DNA from: an uncultured Caulobacterales bacterium
GTDB taxonomy: Bacteria; Pseudomonadota; Alphaproteobacteria; Caulobacterales; Maricaulaceae
Assembly (NCBI GenBank): GCA_937927825.1
Contig: CALFWV010000215.1
Location: 1 to 32,008, forward strand
Direction: 5' to 3'
DNA: 32,008 nucleotides
Shown: positions 1,900 through 3,823 of the stretch, piece after piece
Layout: each line of letters starts with the position of its first letter
Numbering within the stretch: the first letter of the stretch is position 1
Notes under the pieces: generated by a model
What the model saw: only the letters and a program-made list of their open reading frames with translations
The model's database searches: none
What the model was told of the DNA's origin: nothing
Translations under genes and position numbers: made by a program

Positions 1900-2892
1900 G
1901 TGGCCATAAAGGAATGTGACATCGCCTATTTAGAAACAGTCTTCATCATTTGGTGCCTATGCTTGCTGATTGGGGCCTTAATCCCGATGTTTCGGGTGAA
2001 AACATGGTGGCTGCGCGCCTGGACTTATGCGCGAATTCAAATCCTGTGTTTGACGGGACTAACCTTTGTCGCCGGCTTATTTTTGTTCAATTTGCAGTCC
2101 GTTTGGGGCACGTCAATCGCGATTGGGGCTGCGATAATTTCGGCCTTATGTTTGCGGGATATTTTGCCTTTCACACCGCTGGGTAAAAAACAGGTTTCGA
2201 ACATCCCTCAATCAAAAAACAACAAGGCTGTAAAATTATTCGTCGGCAATGTTTTGATGGATAATCAATCACATCAACCCCTGCTGGATATGATAGATGA
2301 GACGGCGCCCGACATCGTATTTCTGGTCGAAACTGACCAAAGGTGGCGCGATTATATGGCTGCATTGGAAGATAAATTTGCCCACACATACCTCCTACCC
2401 CTGCCCGATTATAACGGCATGTTATTCTATTCCCGCTTTCCGATTTTGGACGTGCGCGAGCGTTACTTAGTTCAAGATCACATTCCGTCTCTCACCCTGA
2501 CCCTTGACTTAGGGGACGGCGAAATTTTGACATTTTATGGTTTGCATCCCCGTCCGCCACGTCCGCAAGATGATACCGCTGACTTGGATAAGGAACTCGA
2601 AATTGTCGCCAAAGAAGTCAGCCAAATAAAGACGCCGGTCATTGTTACGGGCGACCTCAATGATGTCGGGTGGTCCACGACAACCAAAGCCTTTCTGAAG
2701 ACAAGCAATCTGAAAGACCCCCGCCGGGGTCGGGGATTATATAATAGCTATAATGCCAAAATCCCGGTTGTCAGATGGCCACTGGATCACACCTTTCATT
2801 CAGATCACTTTGGTCTGATATCCCTAAAACGTATGCCCGCATTTGGCTCGGATCATTTTCCGATTTTTATTGAACTCGGATTAGAAACATAA
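1900..2892 (+). CDS. Endonuclease/exonuclease/phosphatase (EEP) family protein with N-terminal transmembrane segments
   Basis: GTG start. Hydrophobic N-terminus, then EEP signatures: VETDQRW, PVIVTGDLNDVGWS, LDHTFHS, FGSDHFPIFIEL. Confidence 0.9.
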   Translation: MAIKECDIAYLETVFIIWCLCLLIGALIPMFRVKTWWLRAWTYARIQILCLTGLTFVAGLFLFNLQSVWGTSIAIGAAIISALCLRDILPFTPLGKKQVSNIPQSKNNKAVKLFVGNVLMDNQSHQPLLDMIDETAPDIVFLVETDQRWRDYMAALEDKFAHTYLLPLPDYNGMLFYSRFPILDVRERYLVQDHIPSLTLTLDLGDGEILTFYGLHPRPPRPQDDTADLDKELEIVAKEVSQIKTPVIVTGDLNDVGWSTTTKAFLKTSNLKDPRRGRGLYNSYNAKIPVVRWPLDHTFHSDHFGLISLKRMPAFGSDHFPIFIELGLET

Positions 2893-2993
2893 GTTTAAAC
2901 CTATAAGAATCCTCAAATCGGCGTGTCTGTCAGACCAACAAAAACAATGACTTATATAAATTTTTTAGAGAACAATCCTCACTTTCAAAAGCT

Positions 2994-3003
2994 GTGCTAT
3001 ATT
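2994..3003 (+). promoter_or_regulatory. Possible extended -10 promoter for the downstream putative ncRNA
   Basis: TGC-TATATT (TGN extended -10) at 2995-3003. No good -35 hexamer seen. Confidence 0.3.
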
Positions 3004-3009
3004 GAACAC

Positions 3010-3280
3010 GTTCTTTCAAACATGGGACTGGGTAGGACGTCACCTTCCTGTTTGAAAGACGGTGGGTCTGAGCAGCTTTGTTGTGCAAATCGCATTCGCG
3101 AAATGCACTAGACACCAAAGCCTGTGCCGGGAATTTAGGAGTGAGAGCCGATGCCTGGGTCCAACGCTGGCCCAACTGGTAGGACAAACGGGCCGCTTCT
3201 TCAAAAACCATTGCCGCAGAGACTGGCAATTGGCGCAAGCCAAATGCGGGGGGTTGGATTAGCAATCCAATCTTTGCCTT
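3010..3280 (+). ncRNA. Putative structured non-coding RNA
   Basis: No convincing CDS. Manual pairing gives nested stems 3047-3054/3185-3192, 3063-3068/3169-3174, 3075-3080/3116-3121, 3083-3087/3104-3108 and 3090-3093/3098-3101. Also TTGGC-GCAA-GCCAA (3230-3243) and a terminator-like hairpin TTGGATT-AGC-AATCCAA-TCTTT (3254-3275). Ends are approximate. Confidence 0.4.
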
Positions 3281-3418
3281 CTGTAAAACTAACTTCCCTT
3301 CTGGTATTCCATCAGAAGACCAACTCTGCGGGCAAGTCCTGCTTTTAAAATGCCTCGGCTGGCCACGAGTTGAAACTGTTGTTTCAACGGATTGGCAGCA
3401 GCAACGTCCGCTTGGGCA

Positions 3419-3823
3419 CTAATATTTTGACCGCTCACCATTGGGCCGGTTCGCATCCTCCAGAATGCGGCGCTTAATTTGCGCGAGGGTGAAGCCGATG
3501 GATTTTCGCTTGAAAAGGATTTTATCCACCGCTGCCAATTCATAGCGGTAGGCGGCCTCATGATTTTTCATCAGATCGGTGTGCAGGGACCGTATCATAA
3601 TCATGTGCCCCCCGCGAATGAGGACAAAATAAAAGGCAAAAAACCCGACAATGGTTGCATTATGATCTCGGAACCGCGGCGCATCAGAAATTGTGGAAAA
3701 GGCATAGAGAAAGACAAGCAGAACCAACATTGTCGGCAGCACAATTCGTTGCAGCCAAACCCGCAGGCACAGATGTTTCGCGATGAGGGTTTCCGGTGTC
3801 ATCTTCCAGTTCCATACGCTCAT
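3419..3823 (-). CDS. Small membrane protein, function unknown
   Basis: 134 aa from MSVWNWKMTPETLIAKHLC. Two hydrophobic stretches (IVLPTMLVLLVFLYAF, ATIVGFFAFYFVLI). The longer 200-aa ORF start overlaps ychF and is unlikely. Confidence 0.7.
   Translation of the reverse strand: MSVWNWKMTPETLIAKHLCLRVWLQRIVLPTMLVLLVFLYAFSTISDAPRFRDHNATIVGFFAFYFVLIRGGHMIMIRSLHTDLMKNHEAAYRYELAAVDKILFKRKSIGFTLAQIKRRILEDANRPNGERSKY

Follow-up and report, generated by a model that had tools for sequence, protein, structure and literature searches.

A dispersed family of predicted ~410-nt pseudoknotted RNAs with a changing palindromic hairpin tip in marine Caulobacterales

What occupies the gap between an EEP-type gene (1900-2892, + strand) and a small membrane-protein gene (3419-3823, - strand, followed by ychF) in a contig of an uncultured Caulobacterales bacterium? 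We analysed the 32,008 nucleotides of this stretch, hereafter the window. An earlier note had flagged the segment 3010-3280 of the gap as a candidate for a novel or unrecognised non-coding RNA: highly structured, with no convincing coding sequence and an extended -10 just upstream, and folded into a nested rod of 146 nt recalling 6S RNA. As judged from comparison of its sequence with others, the gap is one copy of a dispersed, multicopy family of ~410-nt structured RNA genes, a property beyond what the reading of a single window could show. The earlier description holds for the missing coding sequence, the -10 element and the structuredness, but not for the exact rod.

A DNA search of the host genome with 2890-3430 returned 42 matches at 66-94% identity, spread over many contigs and in many cases split into modules. 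The part of the window that resembles dispersed copies begins at about 2936-2974 and ends at 3399; among the near-identical copies of G004 the likeness reaches back to about -110. From 50 copies, fetched and aligned, we define a unit of ~520 bp, in which a control region of ~110 bp precedes ~410 bp that open with an invariant GTTCTTTC-like block. The copies are intergenic and adjoin unrelated housekeeping genes. The flagged segment begins at the predicted start of the RNA, G3010, but the RNA runs 140 nt further, to about 3418; no intrinsic terminator was identified at its 3' end, which is therefore only approximate. That no convincing coding sequence exists is borne out by 27 copies, in which reading frames uninterrupted across 340 nt are almost lacking and only 17% of pairwise indels have a length divisible by three. 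Stops and non-triplet indels together rule out a protein-coding origin on either strand.

Table 1 Predicted features of the repeat unit and its RNA, in positions of the window. Helix numbers are those of the 75-pair model.
Feature	Position	Strand	Remarks
Whole repeat unit (upstream control block and RNA gene)	2893..3418	+	occupies the entire intergenic gap; outer ends approximate
AATCCTC, upstream instance of the ATCCNC motif near -100	2909..2915	+	129 copies: + strand enrichment near -100, strong at -35
ATCCTC at -35 (an activator site, or a -35 box that departs from consensus)	2975..2980	+	conserved in 137 copies
Extended -10, TG-C-TATATT	2995..3003 (TG 2995-2996, TATATT 2998-3003)	+	conserved in 137 copies
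Structured RNA, predicted start G3010 (GTTCTTTC)	3010..3418	+	3' end approximate; abuts the stop codon of the convergent gene
Helix P1, encloses P2	3012-3020 with 3051-3059	+	covarying, 98.8% of cells paired
Possible long-range pairing, GGAC with GTCC	3025-3028 with 3336-3339	+	both near-invariant; 1-nt misalignment hampers the count
Hairpin P2	3031-3036 with 3043-3048	+	palindromic tip GACGTC, 3036-3041
Loop-loop pseudoknot	3039-3042 with 3110-3113	+	covariation of columns 30 and 77, 100% paired, C-G to G-C exchange
Helix P3, closes the 5' domain	3060-3065 with 3208-3213	+	helix 5; 100% paired, compensatory changes
Helix P4a	3067-3069 with 3130-3132; 3072-3073 with 3126-3127	+	helix 6
Helix P4b (GCTTTG/CAAAGC)	3075-3081 with 3115-3121	+	helix 7; top covariation overall, 6/6 pairs compensatory
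Hairpin insert GTGCAAATCGCATTCGCGAAATGCAC in the P4b loop	3083..3108	+	missing from most copies, found in several others
Helix P5 with inner stem and variable P6 arm	3137-3143 with 3194-3200; inner stem 3147-3149 with 3191-3193	+	helices 8 and 9
Helix P8, closes the 3' domain	3216-3221 with 3324-3329	+	covarying between copies
Second hairpin of the insert kind, TTGGC-GCAA-GCCAA	about 3222..3249	+	copy-specific
Variable arm, P8b hairpin	3254..3270	+	helix 11; 6/6 pairs compensatory
Helix P9, encloses conserved GTAAAAC	3278-3283 with 3313-3318	+	helix 12; 8/9 pairs compensatory

The control block carries what appears to be a promoter. When 137 copies are anchored on GTTC, the columns of the extended -10 stand out (T 69% at -15, G 71% at -14, A 88% at -11 and T 88% at -7), as do those from -34 to -32 (T 80%, C 95% and C 87%). 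The extended -10, TGC-TATATT, had been noticed in the window alone; it proves to be conserved and correctly spaced, and because this spacing fits exactly, the G of GTTC is the predicted start of transcription. A conserved, correctly spaced promoter on many paralogues is a strong, if indirect, sign that they are transcribed, and would not be expected of a dead repeat. The motif ATCCNC occurs twice upstream of the copies (about -112 to -90, and at -35), on the same strand, often ~65 nt apart and inside an AT-rich block. These paired motifs look like operator or activator sites common to all copies.

How far does the family reach? By plain DNA search it is present in only 10 of 60 related genomes, all of one genus. 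Copies were counted with a covariance model of 178 positions, built on the 5' domain, which detects 34 in the window genome and finds the RNA in 12 of the 18 genomes of the genus (Litorimonas/Hellea group). These hold 9-52 copies each, for instance 52 in G008, 45 in G011, 43 in G013, 39 in G002, 38 in G010, 27 in G004, 12 in G015 and 9 in G003. No copy was detected in six of the 18 congeneric genomes; the RNA is therefore not essential for the lifestyle of these bacteria. Of 137 genomes of the family, 31 are carriers, in 6 of 19 genera, and the copies outside the genus are weaker. Under strict filters, with which weak matches are lost, the order (299 genomes) yielded matches in family members only, and in the class (385 genomes) and phylum (399 genomes) nothing but the genome of the window responded. 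Among named genomes, a motif scan pointed to Litorimonas cladophorae KCTC 23968 (G013), Hellea sp. and uncultured Caulobacterales, of the NCBI family Robiginitomaculaceae; the carrier family consists of marine, often alga-associated bacteria.

Plasmid and phage records, including an annotated phage collection, gave no match, and two IMG/VR contigs with a 21-nt motif were dismissed as chance, the model scoring only 7 bits. Nor did the model support a diverged candidate upstream of xerC (L265), in G017, a genome where no copies were detected; its sequence, GTTCGCT ... AGCGGACGGG, resembles the start of the element. A strong copy also lies on a MAG contig labelled Akkermansiaceae (L167, JALZUH010000075.1), with flanks ~70% identical to Litorimonas-type sequence over 1.1-1.7 kb; this contig is most likely mis-binned.

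Copies tend to resemble others in the same genome: the closest relative lies within the own genome for 45 of 67 copies, against 9.7 expected. In G004, the type of P2, the type of P6 and the 3' domain are visibly reshuffled between copies, which are thus mosaics of modules. Such similarity and mosaicism point to recombination, or to recent spread, inside genomes. Downstream of many G004 copies (L286-L301) we also noticed repeats of another dispersed family, marked by strings like ATGTCATCCCG...GGACCTCTTGACC...GGGATGACA.

The structure rests on covariation. We counted a hand-written model of 75 pairs on 27 full-length copies, with 500 column shuffles and slid alignments as controls. Altogether 92.2% of the cells are paired (79.7% in column shuffles, 41-49% in slid controls), 43 of the 75 pairs show compensatory double changes (28 in shuffles), and cells with double changes number 263, against 79 +/- 9 when shuffled and 26-60 when slid. 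None of the 500 shuffles attained any of the observed values. In the 5' domain, 36 copies from across the family have 96.4% of cells paired and 48 of 54 pairs compensatory, a count that leans towards the model, since the alignment was fitted to it. Run on 33 copies of this domain, RNAalifold predicted 54 pairs, and compensatory changes are seen in 35 of these.

An APC-corrected G-test, which is blind to pairing, placed Watson-Crick partners at the top of its list for 48 copies; among them are helix P8 of the 3' domain and the contact of 3039 in the P2 loop with 3113 in the P4b loop. This independent list agrees with the 75-pair model in its helices and in the pseudoknot. In different copies P8 reads GCAGAG/CTCTGC, GCGTGG/CCACGC, GCGTTG/CAACGC or GCGCGG/CCGCGC, and G-U intermediates occur among the compensatory changes in most helices. 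The loop-loop contact, helix 4 of the 75-pair model, is 96.2% paired. At the level of covariation, then, a multi-branch fold with a 5' domain (P1-P6) and a 3' domain (P8-P9) is secure, and an intramolecular pseudoknot between the loops of P2 and P4b is shown. For the terminal 3' hairpin (helix 13), unalignable and 8.9% paired in the 27 copies, we claim no covariation.

Folding energy leaves the case unsettled. Relative to shuffled sequences, z is -0.22 for 3040-3200, -1.69 for 3008-3282 and -2.09 for 3010-3418, while the minus strand reaches -2.66; taken alone these values would have misled, and it is covariation that decides. The segment is highly structured in an evolutionary sense, as the earlier note had it, but its nested rod is mostly not the conserved fold: the region of the rod, 3040-3200, folds no better than shuffles. 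The outer helix of the rod, CCTGTTTG/CAAACGGG, is not conserved, and TTTGAAAGA (3051-3059) pairs instead, with compensatory changes, with the upstream TCTTTCAAA (3012-3020). One inner helix, GCTTTG/CAAAGC, is genuine and covarying, and became our P4b.

Two further elements of that reading, GTGCA/TGCAC with TCGC/GCGA (3083-3108) and the GNRA-capped stem at ~3222-3249, are indeed hairpins of a recurrent kind, but specific to individual copies. Hairpins of this kind follow the pattern GCA-N-TT ... AA-N-TGC and sit on various stem tips across the copies: 25 were found in 50.8 kb of element, 20 of them with a mismatch (A-A or T-T), and 2 in 100.5 kb of flank. Grafted modules of 22-26 nt (GCAATT-stem-loop-AAATGC) are also seen in L005, L010, L014, L020, L029, L061, L071 and L072. 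The recurrent module may serve to bind a protein, or may itself be a small insertion element nested in the larger one.

The most peculiar part of the RNA is the tip of P2. By a strict count, 40 of 45 distinct 16-nt P2 segments contain a self-complementary hexamer, against 7.8 expected by shuffling; of the five exceptions, four are cut inside the palindrome by the way the segments were anchored and one is doubtful as a copy. Applied elsewhere along the RNA, the test gave 0-4 of about 25. An automatic count lists 11 palindromes: GACGTC, GAGCTC, AGGCCT, AGCGCT, ACGCGT, CGATCG, GGCGCC, TGATCA, GCGCGC, ACATGT and ACCGGT. Pairing between two molecules is the natural reading, because the sequence of the palindrome changes while its self-complementarity stays. 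An exposed self-complementary loop kept in evolution, by which homo-oligomeric RNAs may be recognised, is what we find here, and suggests homodimerisation by kissing loops through the P2 tip. Monomer and dimer contacts would compete, since the P4b loop of the same molecule has the 3' half of the palindrome as its partner.

Does the RNA belong to a family already described? At gathering scores, Rfam 15 has no family in the window; at E up to 10 over 2890-3430 it returns only two weak chance matches. Nothing credible over the element emerged when this copy and about 20 others were scanned permissively (E up to 10, 5 and 1), and ARAGORN found neither tRNA nor tmRNA. A literature search on the RNA, or on repeats in the carrier genera, returned nothing. 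RNase P RNA, SRP RNA and tmRNA can be set aside on the Rfam result, the last also on that of ARAGORN, and the models of GOLLD, ROOL and OLE are likewise unmatched. The likeness to 6S RNA is not supported: no model of RF00013 and relatives matches any copy, and a rod opened by a central bubble is not what the covarying structure shows, with its multi-branch junctions, pseudoknot and long-range helices. Rfam scans and covariation on homologous copies were among the checks that the earlier note had named; the first returned no credible family over the element and the second is strong. With the conserved promoter and the non-coding indels, they support its suggestion of a novel or unrecognised non-coding RNA.

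Several known systems resemble the family in part. HEARO RNA, the omega RNA of IscB (RF02033), is likewise a complex RNA that occurs many times in genomes, often with no ORF. Its model is unmatched in the window copy and about 20 others, no inserted ORF is seen in any copy of our family, and the promoter lies so close upstream that a 5' guide would have no space. In the dimer initiation hairpins of retroviruses, such as the HIV-1 DIS, a 6-nt palindromic tip may change in sequence while self-complementarity is kept. The analogy is one of mechanism only: our family is bacterial, its hairpin forms part of a larger RNA, and the loop has a second, intramolecular partner. REP/BIME, ERIC and MITEs share with it a dispersed, intergenic and mosaic distribution, concerted within a genome. 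The unit described here differs from them as an asymmetric, promoter-bearing ~520 bp with a predicted two-domain pseudoknotted RNA, and not a simple palindrome.

In its way of working, the family would be nearest to OLE, ROOL and GOLLD. These are large, multi-branch, strongly covarying bacterial RNAs with kissing loops, some of them intermolecular and with covariation support; cryo-EM shows them as RNA-only homo-oligomers held by conserved intermolecular contacts, and OLE as an RNA-only dimer (PMC12286853). Our family shares no sequence or covariance-model similarity with them. It differs also by its tens of promoter-bearing chromosomal copies per genome, by a palindromic tip whose sequence varies between copies, and by the lack of any match in the annotated phage collection or of model support for any of the pattern matches in viral contigs.

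We propose, with a probability of about one half, that the copies constitute a family of independently transcribed ~410-nt structured RNAs that act in trans, probably as homodimers, with pairing P2 tips and many copies under regulon-like control. Each copy would be transcribed separately, from G3010 in the window, by a shared type of promoter made of the extended -10, ATCCNC at -35 and the AT-rich block. The transcript would fold into its two domains, with the kissing of P2 and P4b inside the molecule, and two transcripts could pair tip to tip through the 6-nt palindrome of P2; the RNA would thus choose between a closed monomer and a kissing homodimer. It may then act as an RNA or RNA-protein scaffold, with the many copies providing dose, while recombination between copies would keep the members of one genome alike and shuffle their modules. 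Tentatively, one may go further and see here RNAs of a new class, encoded tens of times per genome, which would form homodimers or higher-order assemblies; the varying palindromes would serve as tags of self-recognition, by which transcripts of like tag pair, and the RNA would have a built-in switch between intramolecular and intermolecular kissing. Against the proposal count the six congeneric genomes with no detected copy and the lack of an identified terminator. The palindrome, moreover, occurs in two registers relative to the P2 loop, and downstream neighbours are co-oriented with the copy 43 times and convergent 19 times (examples are L014, L020, L181, L219 and L223), a bias not expected of an RNA that acts purely in trans.

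The chief competing reading is that of a mobile element, selfish and non-autonomous: a mobility enzyme encoded elsewhere would act on the RNA or its DNA, and the structure would be kept for moving and not for the host. We consider it unlikely, yet it would account for tens of copies at unrelated sites, for patchy presence between close species, for near-identical copies at different sites in G004 and G034 and for hairpin modules inserted at several stem tips. Presence and absence at the same locus speak for it too. Next to ychF, beside the small membrane-protein gene, a copy is present in G013, G008, G011 and G005 and not in G009, G016 and G002; next to xerC, G000, G008, G011 and G013 have one, which G002, G010, G004, G006 and G014 lack. 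However, the counterparts of the window copy in several species also argue against mobility, as does the promoter intact in each copy, and neither terminal repeats nor target-site duplications can be defined. Of the usual engines of mobility, TnpB/Cas12f-like genes (PF07282) and Y1 transposases (PF01797) are missing in each of the 18 congeneric genomes, and reverse transcriptase (PF00078) is missing in the RNA-rich G000, G002, G004 and G013 (27-43 copies); reverse transcriptases do not track the RNA. Among 88 flanking proteins there is no recurrent partner; only xerC-like recombinases, which are ordinary cell genes, come up more than once, three times in all.

A leader or terminator acting in cis on the adjacent gene would explain the excess of co-oriented downstream neighbours and a 3' end often near the next gene. 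We hold it to be improbable, since the neighbours are unrelated housekeeping genes of no shared pathway and the RNA has its own promoter; about a third of the downstream neighbours, the window's included, are convergent, and many close relatives carry the same genes without the RNA. It is more doubtful still that the RNA has diverged far from one of the established families (6S, RNase P, tmRNA, SRP, HEARO/omega RNA, GOLLD, ROOL or OLE): size and complexity are of similar order, but the element has no credible Rfam 15 match, no tmRNA or tRNA match, no TnpB-like partner gene, and tens of copies per genome, unlike housekeeping RNAs. Hardly any weight is left for a DNA-level repeat or decayed coding sequence with incidental structure, even though the repeat is dispersed and several ORFs above 60 aa cross the element; it is contradicted by compensatory changes with G-U intermediates in most helices, by the asymmetry of the unit, which has a polar promoter at one end, and by stops in every frame and indels that shift the frame.

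Few large structured bacterial RNAs are known; they are usually single-copy, and several proved to be ribozymes, guides or self-assembling particles. The family described here adds a predicted pseudoknotted RNA of ~410 nt for which no partner protein is recognised, and which occupies 9-52 promoter-bearing sites in each carrier genome of the genus. Its combination of features (a large pseudoknotted RNA, tens of promoter-bearing copies, a changing palindromic tip and restriction to a single bacterial family) appears to be undescribed, and we know of no RNA that shares it. Litorimonas cladophorae KCTC 23968, a cultured bacterium with 43 detected copies, makes the family testable now. Were it a selfish element, it would be an unusual one, promoter-bearing and RNA-structured. 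If the RNAs dimerise, they would form a natural set of orthogonal kissing loops, with which one can ask whether homo-oligomeric RNAs are commoner than thought; and if they are transcribed, they would be a prominent new RNA gene family of the genomes that carry them.
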